From: Helicobacter sp. MIT 99-5507
GTDB lineage: Bacteria > Campylobacterota > Campylobacteria > Campylobacterales > Helicobacteraceae
Reading direction: 5' to 3'
DNA length: 64,000 bases
NCBI RefSeq assembly: GCF_003364295.1
Contig: NZ_NXLO01000003.1
Coordinates: forward strand, 124,001-188,000
Shown here: piece by piece, positions 1 to 50,420 of the stretch
Layout: each line of letters opens with the position of its first letter
Position numbering within the stretch: position 1 is the first letter of the stretch
Program-made: the position numbers and the translations under genes
Notes under the pieces: generated by a model
The model's input: the letters and a program-made list of their open reading frames with translations, nothing else
The model's database searches: none
Told to the model about the DNA's origin: nothing

Positions 1-111
1 GCAAAGCTTCATTTTGCTTTTCAATGCTAATTTGCACAAACTTACTAAATATCTCAACTCTCAAATTTATATCTCTTTAAACATAGATTCTATCAATGAT
101 TATACTATATC

Positions 112-161
112 AAATATTTTAAATTACAAGATATTTTTTAAAGATAAAACTAGAATCCAAA
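112..161 (+). repeat. Direct repeat, copy A (downstream of metA)
   Basis: An AT-rich stretch of about 50 bases that matches 2539-2587 in the same orientation. By eye the copies differ at five transitions and one single-base indel. Both contain a shared core of TTTTTAA, then AGATAAAA, then TAGAATC. The two copies bracket the metY-metA block. In copy B the core could be the promoter of the TauE-like gene; copy A has no evident gene to serve. Confidence 0.6.
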
Positions 162-169
162 ATATTTTC

Positions 170-1057
170 TTAGTGCAAAATAAATGGTGTATCTTGATAA
201 ACCTTAAAATTTAGCCAATTTGCAAAAATCACACTAGCATTACTTCGCCATGAGAAATTTGGCACACAAACATCATTATAGTAATTTTGCGGTTTTAAAA
301 TAGGAAGTCCCTTTTTTAAATCACGTTTATACTCAATATCTAACGTTTCTCTTGCATATTCTGGGTGTCCTAAGATAAAATAATCCTTTTCATCTCGAAG
401 CACTGAGATTCCGCTTATATCCCCATTTAAAAGCACCTTAAGTGTTGGATTGCCCCTTACTTGCGCCTCATCAATGTGAGAGTGTCGTGAATGAGGAATC
501 TGCACGATATCATCTAAGCCATTTAGTATCAAATCTTGCTCTATAATTGTGTGTTTAAAGACCCCAAAAAGTTTAGATTTAAGAGGGATTTTCTTAATTT
601 TATGGAAATAGTTTAGTCCTGCCATCGCACCCCAGCATATATATAGTGAGCTTGTGCAATGTGTTTTTAAAAAATCCATAATCTTACACAATTCACCCCA
701 ATATTTTACCTCGTAAAAATCCAAATGTTCTATGGGCGCACCAGTGATTATAGCACCATCAAATTTACGATTACCAATCTCGCTAAAATTTACATAAAAT
801 CGCTCTAGGTGCGAGTATGGGGTATTTTGTCCCACATAGCTTTCTGTTGATAAAAGCGTGATATTTACCTGCAATGGTGAATTTGCAAGTAATGATAAAA
901 TTTGATTTTCTGTTTCAATCTTTGTTGGCATTAGATTGCAAATTAATACTTCTAAGGGACGAATATCTTGATGCTTTGCTTTATGACTACCCATTATAAA
1001 CGCACTTTGCTTAAGTAGAGAAAATGCCGGAATATCCTCTGGAATGACTAATGGCAT
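170..1057 (-). CDS. metA: Homoserine O-acetyltransferase (MetA family)
   Basis: Activates homoserine for methionine synthesis in the cytoplasm. The 295-aa length is normal for MetA. The catalytic Cys is seen at residue 141 (in YICWGAMAG) and the His/Glu pair at 231/233 (GHPEYARET). The residue that sets acyl-CoA preference, in GAPIEHLDF, is Glu110. In this family Glu at that place goes with acetyl-CoA and Gly with succinyl-CoA, so O-acetylhomoserine is the expected product. That fits metY, an O-acetylhomoserine sulfhydrylase, 101 bases upstream on the same strand. The ATG is preceded by an AAAGGAA ribosome site. The gene looks somewhat richer in G+C than its neighbours and the metYA pair is bracketed by direct repeats, which hints at acquisition (inference). 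Confidence 0.93.
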
Positions 1058-1114
1058 AAATTTCCTTTATTTAAAAATCCAAAAAAAATAATAATTTTAT
1101 TTTTAAATACTAAA

Positions 1115-1142
1115 TGTGGAATCTAAAAAATGAGATTCCACA
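1115..1142 (-). terminator. Hairpin between metY and metA
   Basis: Perfect 10-bp inverted repeat (TGTGGAATCT and AGATTCCACA) with an 8-base loop, 17 bases after the metY stop and 58 bases before the metA start. On the minus strand the stem is followed by a T-rich but broken run (TTTAGTATTTAAA). It may be a partial terminator or an RNA-stabilising hairpin that lowers metA expression relative to metY. Confidence 0.55.
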
Positions 1143-1158
1143 AATATGGAATATAAAA

Positions 1159-2457
1159 TTATTTCTCCAATGCCCTTTTCAAATCTGCAATTAAATCGCT
1201 AGGATTTTCTAGTCCTATACTTAAACGCACCGTGCTAGGCGTGATTCCAGCACTTTCTAACTCTGCTTTGCTAAGTTGTGAATGAGTGGTAGAAGCTGGA
1301 TGAATCACAAGTGATTTAGAATCTCCTATATTTGCAACAATTGAAAAAATCTCTAAGTTATTGCATAGCTTTTTTGCTTCCTCATGACTTCCTACCTCAA
1401 ATGCTATAAGCCCACTACTTGCAGAATCTTTAAAGTATTTTTTAAGCAGTAAGTGGTATTGATTATTAGGAAGCCCAGGATAAAATACTTTTTTTACTTT
1501 TGGGTGAGATTCTAGGAATTTTGCCACTTCTAGTGCATTTGCCGAATGCCGCTTAATGCGGAGCTCTAATGTTTCTAAACCTTGAATAATTATCCATGCA
1601 TTTTGCGGAGATATAGTAGCCCCTATATTTCTAAGCCACTCAGTAATAAGGCGAATGCCAAAGATAGGTAGCACACCTGCAAGACTTGCATACACAAGCC
1701 CATGATAGCTTTCATCTGGTGTATTAAATGCAGGATAGCGAGGATTATCTACAAGCAATTCATTTAAGCCATTTCGCTCGATAATAGCTCCTCCAAGTGC
1801 GCTTCCTTGTCCATTTACATATTTACTAAGACTATAAACACTAACATCCACACCATAATCAAATGGTTTATGTAAAAATGCTGTAGCCACAGTATTATCA
1901 CAGATTGTTACGATTCCATGATTTTTAGCAATTTTTACGATTTTTTCAACATCAGCAATTGCAATTTGTGGATTACTAAGACTTTCAAAGAAAATTGCCT
2001 TTGTATTACTATCAATCACCTTTTCAAGCGTGCCATCAATATCATCAATATCAAACACACGCGAAGTTACGCCAAAACGTTTAAATGTATGTGCGATTAA
2101 AGTCTGCGAACCACCATAGATTTTATTAGAATACACTATGTTATCGCCATTTTGTGCTAGATTTGCAAGTGCATAAAAAATCGCTGAGCTACCGCTAGCA
2201 GTAGCCACACCAAACGCCCCTCCTTCTACAGCTGCAAGGCGGTCACCTAGAATCTTATAAGTAGGATTTGTAAGACGAGTATAAATGTTGCCAAGCTCTT
2301 GCAAACCAAATCTAGCCGCTGCCTGCTCTAAATTCTCAAAGCTATAAGCGGTGTTTTGATATACCGGCACACTTAAAGTGCGTTGTGTATCATATGTATA
2401 ACCAGCATGAAGTGCTAGTGTTTCTTGTGTAAAATTATTATGTGTTAAATTTGCCAT
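1159..2457 (-). CDS. metY: O-acetylhomoserine aminocarboxypropyltransferase (sulfhydrylase)
   Basis: PLP-dependent enzyme of the Cys/Met metabolism family that makes homocysteine from O-acetylhomoserine and sulfide. The 432-aa length is typical of MetY and longer than the roughly 380-400 aa of MetB or MetC. The Schiff-base Lys is residue 212 in YSLSKYVNGQG; the phosphate-binding ATASGSSAI segment is near residue 86 and the DNTVATAFLHKP segment near 187. With metA immediately downstream it gives a direct-sulfhydrylation route to methionine. The ATG has an AAAGGAT ribosome site. A MetB-like cystathionine synthase is less likely, given length and the acetyl-type MetA next door. Confidence 0.93.
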   Translation of the reverse strand: MANLTHNNFTQETLALHAGYTYDTQRTLSVPVYQNTAYSFENLEQAAARFGLQELGNIYTRLTNPTYKILGDRLAAVEGGAFGVATASGSSAIFYALANLAQNGDNIVYSNKIYGGSQTLIAHTFKRFGVTSRVFDIDDIDGTLEKVIDSNTKAIFFESLSNPQIAIADVEKIVKIAKNHGIVTICDNTVATAFLHKPFDYGVDVSVYSLSKYVNGQGSALGGAIIERNGLNELLVDNPRYPAFNTPDESYHGLVYASLAGVLPIFGIRLITEWLRNIGATISPQNAWIIIQGLETLELRIKRHSANALEVAKFLESHPKVKKVFYPGLPNNQYHLLLKKYFKDSASSGLIAFEVGSHEEAKKLCNNLEIFSIVANIGDSKSLVIHPASTTHSQLSKAELESAGITPSTVRLSIGLENPSDLIADLKRALEK

Positions 2458-2487
2458 TTTGTATCCTTTGTAAAAAAAATTGATGGA

Positions 2488-2493
2488 ATTATA
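2488..2493 (-). promoter_or_regulatory. -10 element of the metY promoter
   Basis: Read on the minus strand this is a consensus TATAAT in an AT-rich upstream region with no clear -35, as is usual for Helicobacter sigma-70 promoters. The start of transcription would fall near 2481, giving a leader of about 24 bases. Confidence 0.5.
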
Positions 2494-2538
2494 ACATATA
2501 TTTTTTAAAATACAATATGTAATTTTAAAATTTATAAT

Positions 2539-2587
2539 AAATATTTTAAGTTACAAAATACTTTTTAAGATAAAATTAGAATCTAAA
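2539..2587 (+). repeat. Direct repeat, copy B (between metY and the TauE-like gene)
   Basis: Partner of 112-161. It contains TAAAAT at 2571-2576, which would serve as a -10 element for the gene starting at 2610, with transcription starting near 2583. This copy is therefore probably the functional one and copy A a relic or duplicate (inference). Confidence 0.55.
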
Positions 2588-2609
2588 TTTTGATATTTTA
2601 AGGCTTTAG

Positions 2610-3353
2610 ATGGATATTGCAATACTTGCTATTTATGGCATTGCAGCTGGGATTCTAGCTGGAATCTTTGGTATTGGCGGAGGGACATTGATCGTTCCTG
2701 CAATGATATTTTTTGGATTTGATATAAAAAATGCTATTGGAATCTCTGCAATGCAAATGATTTTTTCATCAGTATATGGAACATATCTAAACATAAAAGC
2801 AAAAATGCTAAATTTTGAAATAGCGAAATTTGTGGCAGCTGGGGGATTGCTTGGGGCTGCATTTAGTGGCTTTGTAGTTGATGCATTGCAACCTATATAT
2901 CTTGAAGTGGCATTTATTTTGATTTGTATTTATTCGCTATTTAAAAATCTAAAGCAAAAAAGTGAAATAAAATCCCAAAAAAATAATATCCCCAAAGAGT
3001 TCGTATTATTTATCGTGGGTTTTGTTACTGGAATCTTTGCTATATCTCTTGGAATTGGCGGAGGATTGATAATAGTGCCAGCAATTGCGTATTATCTAAA
3101 TATTCCAACAAAACAAATAGTGCCAGTATCGCTATTTTTTGTAATATTTTCATCATTATCTGGGACTATAAGCCTTGCAATAAATGGTTATGCTAATTAT
3201 AAAGAAGGGCTTATTGTTGGGATATTTTCTCTTATTGGCGTATATATAGGAACAAAAATCAATAAAAAAATATCAAATAGATTCCATAAAAATGCAGTAA
3301 CAATACTATATCTAATAGTGCTTGCCGTAATGATAAAAAATATCATAAGTTAG
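2610..3353 (+). CDS. TauE/SafE family anion permease
   Basis: Inner-membrane protein of 247 aa, almost wholly hydrophobic, with the internal duplication usual in this family: GIFGIGGGTLIVPAM near residue 20 and ISLGIGGGLIIVPAI near residue 145. Each repeat holds a glycine-rich loop between membrane helices. Members export sulfite, sulfoacetate or other organosulfur anions, but the substrate cannot be read from sequence. Divergent from metY, so a sulfur link is tempting but unproven. The ribosome site is weak (TAAGG). Confidence 0.85.
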   Translation: MDIAILAIYGIAAGILAGIFGIGGGTLIVPAMIFFGFDIKNAIGISAMQMIFSSVYGTYLNIKAKMLNFEIAKFVAAGGLLGAAFSGFVVDALQPIYLEVAFILICIYSLFKNLKQKSEIKSQKNNIPKEFVLFIVGFVTGIFAISLGIGGGLIIVPAIAYYLNIPTKQIVPVSLFFVIFSSLSGTISLAINGYANYKEGLIVGIFSLIGVYIGTKINKKISNRFHKNAVTILYLIVLAVMIKNIIS

Positions 3354-3389
3354 ATACAATTCCTAATTTATTTTACCTCTTATAAAAAT

Positions 3390-6203
3390 ATGGAGAATAT
3401 TTTGGAACATATTAAAATAATTGGAGCAAAAGAAAATAATTTAAATAATATTAATCTTAGTATTCCAAAAAATAAATTAGTAGTTTTTACAGGGCTTAGT
3501 GGAAGCGGAAAAAGCACTCTTGCATTTGACACACTATATGCTGAAGGACAAAGAAGATATTTAGAATCTTTATCTAGCTATGCAAGGCAATTCCTAGATC
3601 AAATTGGCAAACCAAATGTAGAAAAGATAGAAGGACTTATGCCTGCTATTGCAATTGATCAAAAAACAACATCAAAAAATCCCCGCTCAACCGTTGGCAC
3701 GATAACAGAGATATATGATTATCTTAGATTGTTATATACAAGAGTTGGTGTGCAACACTGCCATAAATGCGATAAACCAATATCTCATATGACTAGTAGT
3801 GATATTATAAATCAAGTATTATCATTAAAAGAAGGCACAAAAATCTTAATCCTTGCTCCAATATTTAAAGAAAAAAAGGGAACTTTTAGTGATGTATTAG
3901 ATAGTTTGCGTCAAAAAGGCTATCTTAGAGTAATAATTGATGGGGTATTAAGTCGCCTTGATGAACAAATAGAATTATCAAAAAATAAAAAACATACATT
4001 AAAAATCGTAGTAGATAGAGTTGTAGTAAATGAAGAAAACAAAGCAAGAATTGCACATGCAACAGAATTAGCACTAAAAGAATCTTATGGCGAGGTCGAG
4101 ATTCTACAAAATGACGAAAAAAAGCCTCTTCATTATAGTGAGCATTTTGCTTGTTTTGATTGTAAAGTAAGCTTTGAAGAATTAGAACCGCTAAGCTTTT
4201 CTTTTAATTCACCAAAAGGTGCTTGCCCTAGCTGTAATGGACTTGGACTAAATTATAGAATTGATACAAAAAAAATAATAAATCCTCACTTGCCACTATG
4301 CAAAGGTGGTATAAAAATAATCTATGGATTTAATAAAGGCTATTACAGCGAATTATTTAGAGGATTTGCAGAGAGCGCAGATATCGATATAAATGAATGT
4401 TTTGAAAATCTAAGCAAAGAACAACAAAAACAGATTCTATATGGAAGCACAAAAGAATTTAAAATTAAATGGAAAAATAGCTCTATTACTCGCATATGGG
4501 AAGGTATATTAAAAATCGCATATGATATGTTTAAAGATGAAAGAGATGGGCTTAATGACTATATGAGTGAAAAAATATGTGATACCTGCAATGGCAATAG
4601 ATTGAGAGTAGAATCTCTAAGCGTAAAAGTGGCAAATTATGGAATTGGTGAAATAATAAATATGCCAATTGAAGATGTATATAAAATATTTAGCAATGAT
4701 GATAATTTTGCATATTTAAGTGAGCAGCAAAAATTTATTGCAAAAAGTATTTTAAAAGAGATTAAAGAGAGACTTTATTTCTTATATGATGTTGGACTTG
4801 GATATTTAACACTAGGACGAGATAGTAGAACAATAAGTGGTGGTGAAAATCAGCGAATAAGAATTGCAAGTCAAATTGGTAGCGGACTAACAGGCGTTTT
4901 GTATGTCCTTGATGAGCCAAGTATCGGACTTCATGAAAGGGACACTCTAAAGCTTATAAAAACATTGCAAAATTTGCAAAAAAAGGGAAATACGCTAGTT
5001 GTAGTAGAACATGATAAAGAAACAATTAAAAATGCTGATTATATAGTAGATATAGGTCCTGGAGCAGGGAAAAATGGTGGAAATGTGATATTTAGCGGGA
5101 ATCTAAAAGATATGATGAAAGCAAAAACATTAACCGCGGAGTATATAAGTGGCAAAAAAAAGATTGAATATTTTTATAGACGAAAACAAGAAAAATGGCT
5201 TACTATCAAAAATATCAATATCAATAATATAAAAAATCTTGATGTAAAAATTCCACTATTTAATTTTGTATGTTTTAGCGGCGTAAGTGGAAGTGGCAAA
5301 AGCTCTATTGTATTGCAAACATTGCTTCCAAATGCAAAAGAGATTCTAAATAATGCTAAAAAAATAAATAAAGTAGATAATGTAACCATAGAGGGATTAG
5401 AACATTTAGATAAAGTTATATATATAGATCAAAGTCCAATTGGAAGAACCCCACGAAGCAACCCAGCAACTTATACTTGTGTAATGGATGATATAAGAGA
5501 TTTGTTTGCACAAACAAAAGAAGCAAAAATACGAGGTTACAATATAGGGCGATTTAGCTTTAATGTAAAAGGTGGCAGGTGTGAGAGATGTTTTGGTGAA
5601 GGTGAAATAAAAATTGAAATGCACTTTTTGCCAGATATTCTTGTGAAATGTGATGCATGTGGTGGAAAAAAATACAATAAACAAACACTAGAAATAACAT
5701 ACAATGGAAAAAATATCGCTGATGTGCTAGATTTAAGCGTAGATGAGGCACTTATTTTTTTCAAAAAGATTCCAAAAATCGCCCAAAAGCTAACAAGACT
5801 TCAAGAGATAGGACTTGGATATATCAAACTAGGACAAAATGCACTCTCACTAAGTGGAGGTGAGGCACAAAGAATAAAAATAGCAAAAGAATTATGCAAA
5901 AAAGACACAGGAAAAACTCTATATATACTAGATGAGCCGACTACTGGACTGCATTTTGATGATATTAATAAATTAATGAAAGTGCTTCATCATCTAACTA
6001 GCCTTGGAAATAGTGTAGTTGTAATAGAACATAATCTTGATGTAATAAAAAATGCTGATTATATTATAGATATTGGTCCAGAAGGTGGAAGTAAGGGTGG
6101 AAAAATAGTTGATTGTGGCTCGCCAGAAGATTTAATCAAAAATGTAAAAAAATCAAAAAGCTATACAGCAAAATTCCTTGCTCTTGAGTTAGGCGCTAAA
6201 TGA
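3390..6203 (+). CDS. uvrA: UvrABC system protein A
   Basis: DNA damage-recognition ATPase of nucleotide excision repair; works with UvrB and UvrC. 937 aa, normal length. Two ABC modules are visible: Walker A GLSGSGKS at residues 35-42 and GVSGSGKS near 630, with signature and Walker B stretches (SGGENQRIRIA, YVLDEPSIGLHE; SGGEAQRIKIAKE, YILDEPTTGLHF). Zinc-binding Cys pairs occur in both halves, including CERCFGEGEIK followed by CDACGGKKY. The annotated ATG has no ribosome site. The in-frame TTG at 3402 is preceded by GGAG at a 6-base spacing and gives the family-like start MEHIKIIGAKENNL, so 3402 is the more likely start. Converges on pflA with a 12-base gap. Confidence 0.97.
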   Translation: MENILEHIKIIGAKENNLNNINLSIPKNKLVVFTGLSGSGKSTLAFDTLYAEGQRRYLESLSSYARQFLDQIGKPNVEKIEGLMPAIAIDQKTTSKNPRSTVGTITEIYDYLRLLYTRVGVQHCHKCDKPISHMTSSDIINQVLSLKEGTKILILAPIFKEKKGTFSDVLDSLRQKGYLRVIIDGVLSRLDEQIELSKNKKHTLKIVVDRVVVNEENKARIAHATELALKESYGEVEILQNDEKKPLHYSEHFACFDCKVSFEELEPLSFSFNSPKGACPSCNGLGLNYRIDTKKIINPHLPLCKGGIKIIYGFNKGYYSELFRGFAESADIDINECFENLSKEQQKQILYGSTKEFKIKWKNSSITRIWEGILKIAYDMFKDERDGLNDYMSEKICDTCNGNRLRVESLSVKVANYGIGEIINMPIEDVYKIFSNDDNFAYLSEQQKFIAKSILKEIKERLYFLYDVGLGYLTLGRDSRTISGGENQRIRIASQIGSGLTGVLYVLDEPSIGLHERDTLKLIKTLQNLQKKGNTLVVVEHDKETIKNADYIVDIGPGAGKNGGNVIFSGNLKDMMKAKTLTAEYISGKKKIEYFYRRKQEKWLTIKNININNIKNLDVKIPLFNFVCFSGVSGSGKSSIVLQTLLPNAKEILNNAKKINKVDNVTIEGLEHLDKVIYIDQSPIGRTPRSNPATYTCVMDDIRDLFAQTKEAKIRGYNIGRFSFNVKGGRCERCFGEGEIKIEMHFLPDILVKCDACGGKKYNKQTLEITYNGKNIADVLDLSVDEALIFFKKIPKIAQKLTRLQEIGLGYIKLGQNALSLSGGEAQRIKIAKELCKKDTGKTLYILDEPTTGLHFDDINKLMKVLHHLTSLGNSVVVIEHNLDVIKNADYIIDIGPEGGSKGGKIVDCGSPEDLIKNVKKSKSYTAKFLALELGAK

Positions 6204-30866: not shown

Positions 30867-31115
30867 ATGAATTTAAAACTAGCTAGAATGAATCTAAATG
30901 ACAAGCCAAAAACAATAACACTAGAAGAAATAGAAAAACAAGTAAAAGAAAAAGGAAACACCACATTCTACCTTGATAGAGAAAATTCATTAAAAGATTT
31001 AGAAAAAATATGTGCTCATTTTGAAAAAAGTGCAAAATCAACTCATTTTCACGAGCTAAGATTTGGACTTGATAAAGATTGCATTCTTTATGAATTACAC
31101 ATTATAGATTATTAA
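30867..31115 (+). CDS. HP0268-like small protein (possible nicking nuclease)
   Basis: 82 aa, highly charged, ending LYELHIIDY. Size, C-terminal YELHI and position immediately before miaB match H. pylori HP0268, which has been reported to nick DNA and to cut RNA. The match is recalled from memory and from gene order rather than computed. Ribosome site AAGGAAT at 30855-30861. Sixteen bases from miaB, so probably one operon with miaB and the DUF374 gene. Confidence 0.6.
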   Translation: MNLKLARMNLNDKPKTITLEEIEKQVKEKGNTTFYLDRENSLKDLEKICAHFEKSAKSTHFHELRFGLDKDCILYELHIIDY

Positions 31116-31130
31116 TAAAAGATAGCAAAA

Positions 31131-32423
31131 TTGACTAAAAAATTATTTATAAAAACATTTGGCTGTGCTATGAATACGCGTGATAGTGATCATATTATCG
31201 CTGAATTGAAAGAAAAAGAAAACTACAATATAACACAAGATGCAAGAGAAGCTGATTTGATTATACTAAATACTTGCAGTGTTCGAGAAAAACCAGAAAA
31301 AAAGCTATTTAGTGAAATTGGAAGTTATGCTGCCATAAAAAAAAGAGATGCAAAAATTGGAATCTGTGGTTGCACCGCAAGTGCTCTTGGTGAAGAAATA
31401 ATCAAAAAAGCTCCAAGTGTTAATTTTGTATTAGGTGCAAGAAATGTATCAAAAATATCAAGCATTATCCACAAAGAAAAAGCTGTAGAAATCGAGATAA
31501 ATCATGATGAATCAAATTATGAATTTTGCAACAATATAGAATCTAATATAAGAGCCTTGATAAATATTTCTATTGGCTGTGATAAAAAGTGTTCTTATTG
31601 TATAGTGCCATTTACAAGAGGAAAAGAAATTTCTATCCCGCTTAATCTTATCTTAAAAGAAACAAGAGCAAGAGTAGAAAATGGTGCAAAAGAAATAATC
31701 TTGCTTGGACAAAATGTAAATAATTATGGCGCTAGATTCTCAATTCCACATGAAAAAATAAACTTTACAAAATTATTGCAGGAAATAAGCAAAATTGATG
31801 GGGTTGAACGAATCAAATTCGTATCACCGCATCCATTGCATATGGATGATGAATTTATAGAAGAGTTTGCAAGTAATAAAAAAATATCAAAATATATACA
31901 TATGCCTATGCAAAGTGGCTCAAATACTGTTTTAAAAGATATGAAAAGAGGATATACAAGAGAGTGGTTTTTAAATAGAGTAAATAAGATAAAATCTCTC
32001 TGTCCTGATGTAGGTATAGGCACAGATATAATAGTGGCATTTCCAAGTGAAAAAGAAGAAGATTTCTATGATACATTAGATATGGTAAAAAATATAGAAT
32101 TTGATACTATGTATAGTTTTATTTATTCTCCAAGAAAAGATACAACAGCATTTAATATGAAAGAGATAGATTCTAGTGTTGCTGCTATGAGATTAGAAAT
32201 ATTGCAGAATCTTCACAAGCAAATCTTAAATAAAAAAGCAAAAAATGAAATAAATAAAATCCATAAAGTTATGATTGAAAATATTAATGATAAAGGAAGT
32301 GAAGGTAGAAGCGATAATGGTAGGCTAATAAAAATAAATGATACCAATATTGCTATTGGCAATTTCTATGATGTAATCATCACAAATAATGAAAATGGAA
32401 GCCTATTTGGCAAAATAATTTAA
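31131..32423 (+). CDS. miaB: tRNA-2-methylthio-N6-dimethylallyladenosine synthase
   Basis: Radical-SAM methylthiotransferase that modifies A37 of tRNAs reading UNN codons. 430 aa. The N-terminal cluster Cys are in TFGCAMN, NTCSVRE and ICGCTAS; the radical-SAM CxxxCxxC is in GCDKKCSYC (near residue 150). A C-terminal TRAM domain follows (about 370-430). Starts with TTG and a poor ribosome site. The stop overlaps the next start by one base (TAATG). Confidence 0.95.
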   Translation: MTKKLFIKTFGCAMNTRDSDHIIAELKEKENYNITQDAREADLIILNTCSVREKPEKKLFSEIGSYAAIKKRDAKIGICGCTASALGEEIIKKAPSVNFVLGARNVSKISSIIHKEKAVEIEINHDESNYEFCNNIESNIRALINISIGCDKKCSYCIVPFTRGKEISIPLNLILKETRARVENGAKEIILLGQNVNNYGARFSIPHEKINFTKLLQEISKIDGVERIKFVSPHPLHMDDEFIEEFASNKKISKYIHMPMQSGSNTVLKDMKRGYTREWFLNRVNKIKSLCPDVGIGTDIIVAFPSEKEEDFYDTLDMVKNIEFDTMYSFIYSPRKDTTAFNMKEIDSSVAAMRLEILQNLHKQILNKKAKNEINKIHKVMIENINDKGSEGRSDNGRLIKINDTNIAIGNFYDVIITNNENGSLFGKII

Positions 32424-33091
32424 TGATATTTAATAAAGATTCTAGAAGAGCATTTAAACGTAAAATAATACTTTTATTTGCTCCACGGCTTGTTTGGATA
32501 TTTCTTTGGATTTTGTATTTAAGCTGCAAAAATAGATTTTATATTCATGATGATATAAAAAAGGGCAATGCTATACTTGCTTTTTGGCATGGTGAATTTT
32601 TAATGCTTCCATTTTTGTATAAAAAAATGCGAGATAAACCAAAAATATTTGTAATTTCAAGCGAGCATTTTGATGGTGAATTGATGGTAAAACTATATGG
32701 ATATTTTGGATTTAAAACTATTCGAGGCTCTAATACAAGAGGTGGAAGAAGGGTTTTGATACAATCATTTAAAAAGCTAGAAGATGGATATGATGTTGCA
32801 ATAACACCTGATGGTCCAAAAGGACCTTATCATAGTATAGCAGATGGTGTTGTAGCTATGAGTCAAAAAACCGGCATTGCAATAGTGCCTGTTAGAACTA
32901 TACCAAATAGATTTTATGAGCTAAAAACTTGGGATAAATTTAGAATCCCAAAATTATTTTCTAAAATAATATATATCTCAATGCCAAGTTTTCATATATC
33001 AAAAGATTTAAACTTAGAAGACGCAAAAGAATTAGTATATAAACAAATGACAAAAGACCCAAATATAGTTTTTAAATATGAGGGTTTTTAA
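32423..33091 (+). CDS. DUF374 lysophospholipid acyltransferase-like protein
   Basis: 222 aa. An N-terminal hydrophobic helix (about residues 13-33) is followed by the acyltransferase-like core: FWHGEFLMLPF (the His of an HxxxxD-like site), TIRGSNTRGGRRVL and ITPDGPKGPYHSIADGV, typical of DUF374. Relatives include LpxL/LpxJ-type acyltransferases of lipid A synthesis, so an acyl transfer to lipid is likely but the substrate is unknown. Same gene order (small gene, miaB, this gene) as in H. pylori HP0268-0270. Confidence 0.82.
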   Translation: MIFNKDSRRAFKRKIILLFAPRLVWIFLWILYLSCKNRFYIHDDIKKGNAILAFWHGEFLMLPFLYKKMRDKPKIFVISSEHFDGELMVKLYGYFGFKTIRGSNTRGGRRVLIQSFKKLEDGYDVAITPDGPKGPYHSIADGVVAMSQKTGIAIVPVRTIPNRFYELKTWDKFRIPKLFSKIIYISMPSFHISKDLNLEDAKELVYKQMTKDPNIVFKYEGF

Positions 33092-33167
33092 GAATATAGT
33101 TTAGTTATTTTATAAGTTTAAGATTGTAGAATCTAATGAATTAAATATTTATTTTAAAGGCTATTTA

Positions 33168-34079
33168 TTGTCATTATTTAGCAGAATATATCAAAAAGTT
33201 ATTATATCAATTGACTTAGATGAAAAAACTTGTAGAGTTATAGTATCTAATAATTCACAACAAGAAGAAAAAACATATAAAACTATTAATGCAGATTTTC
33301 CCATAGAAGCAGCAAAATACATACAAAGGATACAAAATAAACACCCATATACATATGTATCTACTATGATTAGGGGACAACAACAAGGGCTATTAAATGG
33401 TAATAAAATAGATATATTTGATAAATTTGGACTTGATATAAATTCTTTAAGAATAATGCTAGTAAATAATCAATGGTTTGTTTATGTAAGCAAAAAAAAT
33501 CTACAAGATTATAAAAATAAATTTAGCAAAATAAATGGATTGGACTTTGTTTTTTCACCATTTATTATAATCTTTGAAAAAATAAAAGATAGTCTAGATA
33601 GCGCAAAAAAGCTATATATATTACAAGAAAAAGGCTCTAGTAGTTTGCTTATTGCAGACAGAGATAATATATATTTTGGAGAATATATAGTATTTGAACA
33701 AGATAGATTCTTAGATGAAAATAAAGAAGATGATGACAAGAATGATAAAGAAATAGAATTTGATGTCATTGATGAAATTGATGAAAATATAATTATAAAA
33801 GATTTTGATAAAAATGGCTATGAACAATCACAAAATAATCTTAGTGAATTATCTATTGCAAACCACATGATAGAACTTATCACAAAAACTTTAAATAGCT
33901 TTTATCAAGATAGCAGATATGCAAGTGATTTTATAGATGAACTTTTGATATTTGATGGATATGGAATAAGTGATAATGCAAAATCTCATCTAAAAAATAA
34001 TACCATGCTTGAAACTCAATTTATACGAATAGATGTATGCAAGGAAATAGAAAAGCTAACAAAGATGGAATTACAATAA
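33168..34079 (+). CDS. PilM/GspL-like actin-fold protein (hypothetical)
   Basis: 303 aa, no membrane helix. The N terminus KVIISIDLDEKTCRVIV resembles the phosphate-1 strand of actin-like PilM and GspL. The C terminus (SDFIDELLIFDGYGISDNAKSHL, then FIRIDVCKEIEKL) resembles the end of the same fold. The middle (about 180-215) is very acidic. The nucleotide-binding residues are not clearly conserved. Together with the next two genes it repeats the PilM-PilN-PilO order. Starts with TTG after AAAGG. Not recognised as a named Helicobacter protein. Confidence 0.6.
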   Translation: MSLFSRIYQKVIISIDLDEKTCRVIVSNNSQQEEKTYKTINADFPIEAAKYIQRIQNKHPYTYVSTMIRGQQQGLLNGNKIDIFDKFGLDINSLRIMLVNNQWFVYVSKKNLQDYKNKFSKINGLDFVFSPFIIIFEKIKDSLDSAKKLYILQEKGSSSLLIADRDNIYFGEYIVFEQDRFLDENKEDDDKNDKEIEFDVIDEIDENIIIKDFDKNGYEQSQNNLSELSIANHMIELITKTLNSFYQDSRYASDFIDELLIFDGYGISDNAKSHLKNNTMLETQFIRIDVCKEIEKLTKMELQ

Positions 34080-34088
34080 AGGACAATA

Positions 34089-34607
34089 ATGGCTCTAAGA
34101 TATAGCTTTACAACTCCAAGGCCAAAATATATAGTATCAAAGCTAACAAAAATATGGATATTTTATATAGTGCTTAGTGTTGTTATTATATATTTTGGTG
34201 GAATCTATCTAAAAATAGAAGTTGATATATTGCATAATAATACACAAGTTATAGAAAACAATATGAATATGCAAGATAAAAAAATAGCCCTTATAAATAA
34301 AAACATAGAGCGTCTAAAATACGAGGCAAATCTAAATAATATAAATAAAAACTACAATAGTGAGGTGCAAAAATCATTATTAAATTTATTTGCACTAATA
34401 CCTGATCAAATAACAATAACACAAATAAAACTTGAAGAAGAAAAGCTAACACTAAAGGGTATAACACCGACTAGAGAGCTGTATTCTTTCTTGTTGCAAG
34501 CACCACTAAGATCAATCTTTACAACAAGTAGAGTTGATTTTTTTTCACTACCAAATGGGTGGTTTAATTTCACATCAATTAGCGTATTAAATAAAGAGAC
34601 AAAATGA
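34089..34607 (+). CDS. PilN-like bitopic membrane protein (hypothetical)
   Basis: 172 aa. A short basic cytoplasmic N terminus precedes one membrane helix (about residues 25-45), a coiled coil (about 50-90) and a small periplasmic alpha/beta domain whose core LLNLFALIPDQITITQIKLE, then LTLKGITPTRELYSFLL, follows the PilN pattern closely. Ten bases after the PilM-like gene and 4 bases overlapping the next (ATGA). Confidence 0.6.
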   Translation: MALRYSFTTPRPKYIVSKLTKIWIFYIVLSVVIIYFGGIYLKIEVDILHNNTQVIENNMNMQDKKIALINKNIERLKYEANLNNINKNYNSEVQKSLLNLFALIPDQITITQIKLEEEKLTLKGITPTRELYSFLLQAPLRSIFTTSRVDFFSLPNGWFNFTSISVLNKETK

Positions 34608-35134
34608 AATTTTTTAATTTTTTAAATGATATTGATTGGAGCAAAAATATAATATTATTTATAGTATATATATTGATTATATTATTTTGCCTAGCATTTT
34701 ATTTTATACCAATTATGCAAAATCATAAGATTAAAACTCTAGATTACAAACGAATACAAAGCCTTGATACTGCAATCACTAACAATGAAAATGCTCTACA
34801 ACAAGATTTGGATTCTATATTAAGCAAAAATGATCATCACAATATAAGAAACAAGATTGATATGCAGAAATTAGAAAAATATATAAAAACATATATAAAT
34901 AATGCAGTCATTCTTGATAATGGAATACAAGATTCTGCTAATAATATAAAAATACAAAATATTTCAATACAAGGATATACAAAGCATACAAAAGAGATTG
35001 TGGATTTTATTAATAATCTAGAGAATCTAAATAATAATATAAGAATAGGATTCCCAATTGATATAGCAAAACAAGGAGATAATCTAAAAGTAAATCTCTA
35101 TATAAATATCTATTATAGCGATTATAAATTATGA
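34604..35134 (+). CDS. PilO/GspM-like bitopic membrane protein (hypothetical)
   Basis: 176 aa. A membrane helix at about residues 17-36, a helical stalk, then a periplasmic domain with IQNISIQGYTKHTKEIVDFINNLENL, a pattern seen in PilO and GspM. Abuts the convergent polA end with no spacer. With its two neighbours it would form an inner-membrane alignment platform of a type II secretion or type IV pilus kind; no secretin, pilin or traffic ATPase gene is in this window. Confidence 0.55.
   Translation: MKFFNFLNDIDWSKNIILFIVYILIILFCLAFYFIPIMQNHKIKTLDYKRIQSLDTAITNNENALQQDLDSILSKNDHHNIRNKIDMQKLEKYIKTYINNAVILDNGIQDSANNIKIQNISIQGYTKHTKEIVDFINNLENLNNNIRIGFPIDIAKQGDNLKVNLYINIYYSDYKL

Positions 35135-41750: not shown

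Positions 41751-50420
<8,670 letters not shown>

Follow-up and report, generated by a model that had tools for sequence, protein, structure and literature searches.

A PilM/PilN/PilO-like gene trio in Helicobacter sp. MIT 99-5507 is very probably the flagellar-cage operon fcpMNO

Organization of the locus

Three consecutive forward-strand genes in the window (the whole 64,000-nucleotide stretch of Helicobacter sp. MIT 99-5507 DNA analysed here) encode PilM-, PilN- and PilO-like proteins in M-N-O order, and are listed below with their upstream neighbours under the names argued for in this report.

30867-31115, forward strand: HP0268-family gene upstream of miaB, given for context only (Pfam PF18618, E 1.6e-27)
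31131-32423, forward strand: miaB, conserved upstream gene that marks the fcpMNO site by synteny
32423-33091, forward strand: DUF374 protein gene, conserved, between miaB and fcpM (Pfam PF04028, E 1.9e-25)
33168-34079, forward strand: fcpM (PilM-like), 303 amino acids, soluble, predicted actin-like fold
34089-34607, forward strand: fcpN (PilN-like), 172 amino acids, one transmembrane (TM) segment, coiled coil and small periplasmic domain
34604-35134, forward strand: fcpO (PilO-like), 176 amino acids, one TM segment, coiled coil and predicted ferredoxin-like periplasmic domain

The start codon of fcpM is TTG, with AAAGG upstream. An earlier interpretation made from the DNA letters (hereafter the sequence-only reading) had described tight spacing, which was correct for the ATGA overlap of fcpN and fcpO; the spacing between fcpM and fcpN is 9 bases and not the 10 given there. 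Its membrane topology was reproduced by Kyte-Doolittle hydropathy over 19 residues: no membrane-like segment was found in FcpM (best mean 1.16), and one each was found in FcpN (near residue 22, mean 2.24; TM at about residues 22-40) and FcpO (near residue 16, mean 3.12). A promoter and terminator scan returned promoter-like matches around the trio at close to the shuffle mean and one terminator-like stem inside fcpN. Comparison within the genus showed no internal stops in the three genes and dN/dS values of 0.13-0.23 for M and N and 0.18-0.38 for O, indicating purifying selection; with intact frames and such constraint, the trio is neither a set of chance open reading frames (ORFs) nor a relic.

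No pilus genes adjoin the trio, which lies downstream of miaB-DUF374 (window positions 31131-35134), and the window ORFs include none recognised as flagellar. The statement that partner genes are outside the window is true of the window. Farther along, the reverse strand carries a single ORF of 2886 amino acids (41751-50411) with an RpoB-like beginning, whose length would accommodate an RpoB-RpoC fusion of the kind known in Helicobacter.

Structure and sequence comparison of the three proteins

AlphaFold2 models were built for M and O with 32-34 relatives. The M model is actin-like (mean pLDDT 83), with an acidic insert at residues 182-220 modelled at low confidence. PilM chains filled Foldseek ranks 2-10 for this model (E 4e-10 to 3e-9); the VIA-align scores were Z 19 for FtsA and Z 16.6 and 16.5 for PilM (3jc8, 2ych). 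As modelled, M groups with the actin-like proteins FtsA and PilM, in agreement with the soluble, actin-fold-like protein that had been proposed. The O model (pLDDT 86) consists of a TM helix, a coiled coil and a helix-strand-strand-helix-strand-strand domain; VIA-align ranks 1-3 were PilO (Z 10.9, 10.3 and 9.8), above unrelated ferredoxin-like proteins, and the coiled coil and ferredoxin-like domain anticipated for O were thereby recovered. The structure search against PilM/N/O and GspL/M that had been suggested, run for M and O, returned PilM-like and PilO-like folds. Components of type II secretion (T2SS) were also matched, O by the periplasmic domains of GspM and GspL (EpsM Z 7.5) and M by the cytoplasmic domain of GspL (4pht). 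PilO nevertheless scores higher than GspM, the trio consists of separate genes in PilM-N-O order, and its distribution does not follow that of T2SSF and secretin.

By sequence alone the trio can barely be tied to PilM/N/O. Single-protein scans of M and O gave no Pfam or NCBIfam match at threshold, and N matched Pfam PilN below threshold (E 0.0066; 16.9 bits against a cut-off of 22.8). When all members of the M, N and O alignments were scanned against Pfam, sub-threshold PilN matches alone were relevant, with no match for M and one at chance level for O. The PilN-like traits of fcpN are this sub-threshold match together with one TM segment and a coiled coil read from the sequence. HMM searches of PDB sequences with the trio found no PilM, PilN or PilO, so structure comparison was needed. 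Aligned by hhalign to the PilM-N-like fusion encoded elsewhere in the same genome, M reached 79% probability (E 1.6e-5), N 78% (E 1.8e-5, in the TM/coiled-coil part only) and O 9%, which suggests weak homology between the trio and that fusion.

Conservation across the Campylobacterales

In a sample of 149 Campylobacterales genomes the M query was matched in 133 and the N profile in 138. The gene order (HP0268)-miaB-DUF374-M-N-O was present in most of 49 loci sampled for synteny, and miaB-DUF374-M-N-O also in most named records, which include Helicobacter (among them Helicobacter cetorum), Sulfurimonas, Sulfuricurvum and Campylobacter metagenome-assembled genomes (MAGs), the window FcpN being about 36-38% identical to that of the Campylobacter MAGs. 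In some Helicobacter, for example H. pullorum and H. rodentium, the trio stands apart from miaB.

Two families of the sample, f18 and f9, have a single protein after DUF374, of 338-344 amino acids in f18 and 521-571 amino acids in f9 (L186 982-2562, forward strand; L187, L188 and L189). In the f9 protein of genome G115 an FcpM domain comes first (hhalign E 1.2e-13), and a membrane-like segment after it. These proteins look like fcpMN and fcpMNO fusions, as known from Nitratiruptor and Arcobacter (PMC11870540), with the complete M-N-O set seemingly joined in f9.

Co-occurrence with flagellar and pilus genes

FliG was found in 144 of the 149 genomes, and the trio, separate or fused, in 142 of these 144 (G107 counted by M only); the two FliG-positive genomes without it, G042 and G052, are 58-61% complete. 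All five FliG-negative genomes (G091, G094, G113, G128 and G141) have T2SSF and secretin, and in none of them was the trio detected at its usual site, weak matches being limited to M in G094 (E 0.002) and to N in G091 (E 7e-6, away from the miaB/DUF374 site). Conversely, every one of the 12 genomes of genus g6 has an intact trio and FliG, and none has T2SSF or secretin. Fisher's exact test on the co-occurrence gave p = 2e-9, a figure that overstates the evidence because of the relatedness of the genomes and because only two families supply the FliG-negative ones, which hence represent few independent losses. Trio and pilus genes can each be present without the other, and the trio follows flagella: in the sampled genomes it occurs with them irrespective of type IV pili (T4P) or T2SS, and it does not show the consistent co-occurrence with secretin and PilC/GspF expected of a T4P/T2SS platform. 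Three of four sampled g6 members are 69-72% identical in FcpN to the named H. cetorum and the fourth 40%, and the genus fits the gastric Helicobacter clade.

The flagellar genes of the organism's own genome (G000) include FliG, MotA/MotB adjoining FliP, and an FlgY-like MgtE_N protein near purA. The sequence-only reading had regarded Helicobacter as not known for T4P or T2SS; this genome encodes a secretin, GspE, GspF, a PilM-N-like fusion, pilins and a prepilin peptidase. The secretin, pilin and GspE/GspF genes for which a genome search had been recommended were thus all found, away from the trio. The pilus-type operon of this genome (L071 6267-14949, reverse strand; contig C3 of G000, about 207266-215948) adjoins mutS2, starts about 19 kb past the window end and encodes GspF, GspE, a TPR membrane protein, a secretin, a 173-amino-acid protein in the PilP position, a 213-amino-acid protein in the PilO position and the 578-amino-acid PilM-N-like fusion; the prepilin peptidase gene lies elsewhere, apart from this operon. 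Because it already includes a PilM-N-like gene of its own, as well as genes at the PilO and PilP positions, the operon is not the trio's partner, and it rather than the trio is likely the pilus platform of the genome.

DNA uptake through ComB had also been assumed, and does not carry over to this organism, in whose own genome no TrbI/ComB10 match was found. TrbI/ComB10-type proteins occur in all 12 g6 genomes, without secretin or T2SSF. The inverse is seen in genus g1, where G000, G002 and G004 have secretin and T2SSF without a TrbI match, and G001 has both.

As a separate observation, nine scattered type IV pilin genes are present outside the window on contigs C1-C4 of G000 (loci among L193-L197 and L202-L206). 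Their first approximately 60 residues and C-terminal ends are nearly identical and the middle is hypervariable; their 5' leaders resemble one another and contain an A-run, and an inverted repeat lies immediately downstream of most copies. A tenth pilin (L206) is divergent. From these features the set resembles a pilin family subject to recombination or variation, and it is a better lead than the trio.

Comparison with the known flagellar cage

In Campylobacter jejuni, CJJ81176_0481, 0480 and 0479 have been named FcpM, FcpN and FcpO and form a flagellar cage, placed there by cryo-electron tomography (cryo-ET) of mutants, co-immunoprecipitation (co-IP) and co-occurrence; together with PflD, 34 cage units encircle the MotAB stators and contribute to keeping them loaded (PMC11870540). 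The peripheral cage is absent from the triple deletion, in which about 10% keep loaded stators, and this stator loss agrees with the lowered motility of the mutant (PMC11870540). Upstream of the fcpMNO operon is miaB, a conserved neighbour, and the operon accompanies flagellar genes whether or not T4P are present (PMC11870540). For H. pylori, two reports describe the cage around the stators as composed of PilM/N/O homologues, with PilO being HPG27_252 (PMC11237671, PMC12472139). Mutants there without PilO formed less early biofilm, and soft-agar swim halos grew larger when either PilO or PilN was lost (PMC11237671, PMC12472139).

The window trio resembles C. jejuni FcpM/N/O in gene order, upstream miaB, the predicted PilM-like fold of M and PilO-like fold of O, co-occurrence with flagella and not T4P, and the presence of fusion forms in some lineages; it differs in that the window copies are divergent. 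With H. pylori PilM/PilN/PilO it shares the same three-gene set, and an equivalent operon is conserved in the gastric-Helicobacter-like loci L072-L075; those gastric-Helicobacter-like genomes have no secretin/GspF system, whereas the window genome has both the cage operon and the pilus-type operon. Set against PilM/PilN/PilO of type IVa pili (PDB 2ych, 5eou, 2rjz and 3jc8), the trio is alike in the modelled M and O folds, gene order and membrane topology, with N linked to PilN through its weak Pfam match and topology, but it is without adjoining pilus genes, and FcpM shows no conserved glycines at the positions judged by eye to be those of the actin-type phosphate loops.

Interpretation

We consider that the trio is fcpMNO, the flagellar-cage operon of Campylobacterota, at a probability of roughly 0.94. 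Synteny, named relatives and the published papers together argue for orthology with the C. jejuni and H. pylori cage genes. The sequence-only reading was borne out where it recognised PilM/PilN/PilO-like genes in M-N-O order and a platform in the envelope with a role other than in a pilus. It had further offered a relic or an undescribed envelope machine as explanations, and neither was upheld.

That the trio might be the inner-membrane platform (PilM/N/O or GspL/M) of the genome's own T4P, T2SS or competence machine is suggested by the secretin, GspE, GspF, prepilin peptidase and pilins of this genome and by the PilM/N/O-like folds. We regard it as extremely unlikely, since the pilus-type operon has its own PilM-N-like fusion and 213- and 173-amino-acid proteins in the PilO and PilP positions, and since 12 genomes lacking secretin and T2SSF carry the trio and five genomes with both showed none at its site. 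Still less probable is a platform for an undescribed envelope machine that is neither flagellum nor pilus: nothing specific speaks for it beyond the absence of a recognised flagellar gene from the window ORFs, while the orthologues form the stator cage in C. jejuni and H. pylori, a placement that in C. jejuni comes from mutant cryo-ET, co-IP and co-occurrence (PMC11870540), and the trio co-occurs with FliG in the sampled genomes. Decay of an ancestral pilus system to a relic would account for the very weak sequence similarity to the PilM/N/O families, but it is the least probable of the readings considered given intact and constrained frames (dN/dS 0.13-0.38) and near-universal syntenic retention in flagellated Campylobacterales.

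As the flagellar cage operon, the trio would allow the window organism to build the same stator cage by analogy with its relatives. A single helix would hold each of FcpN and FcpO in the inner membrane, and the two would pair through their coiled coils and small periplasmic domains, with FcpM on the cytoplasmic face of the inner membrane. Assembly of the cage in C. jejuni depends on PflA, PflB and PflD. The cytoplasmic tail of FcpN carries the motif [YFL]S[FY]xxPxxK, in which S6 is invariant, K13 is present in 33 of 34 sequences and P10 in 31 of 34, and this conserved tail may dock on FcpM as PilN does on PilM (PDB 2ych, 5eou). Across 34 FcpM sequences there is no conserved DxG or glycine after strand 1 and after the domain-2 strand, at positions placed by eye without residue-level superposition; because of this placement we offer as a hypothesis that FcpM may be nucleotide-free, a static scaffold working without ATP. 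The further idea that cage and pilus-type platforms exchange subunits or signals, with a nucleotide-free FcpM cage coupling stator load to pilus output, is one we hold to be very unlikely.

The flagellar cage is itself already known, and the trio is a real finding that is already explained. What is settled is the nature of a conserved operon that had stood unannotated, its proteins, which have no threshold Pfam or NCBIfam name, being parts of the flagellar cage in all probability. This is useful for annotation and for the account of flagella borrowing pilus proteins, a story already published. A single Helicobacteraceae genome here holds a cage operon and a separate pilus-type operon together, and gastric-Helicobacter-like genomes keep the cage operon only.
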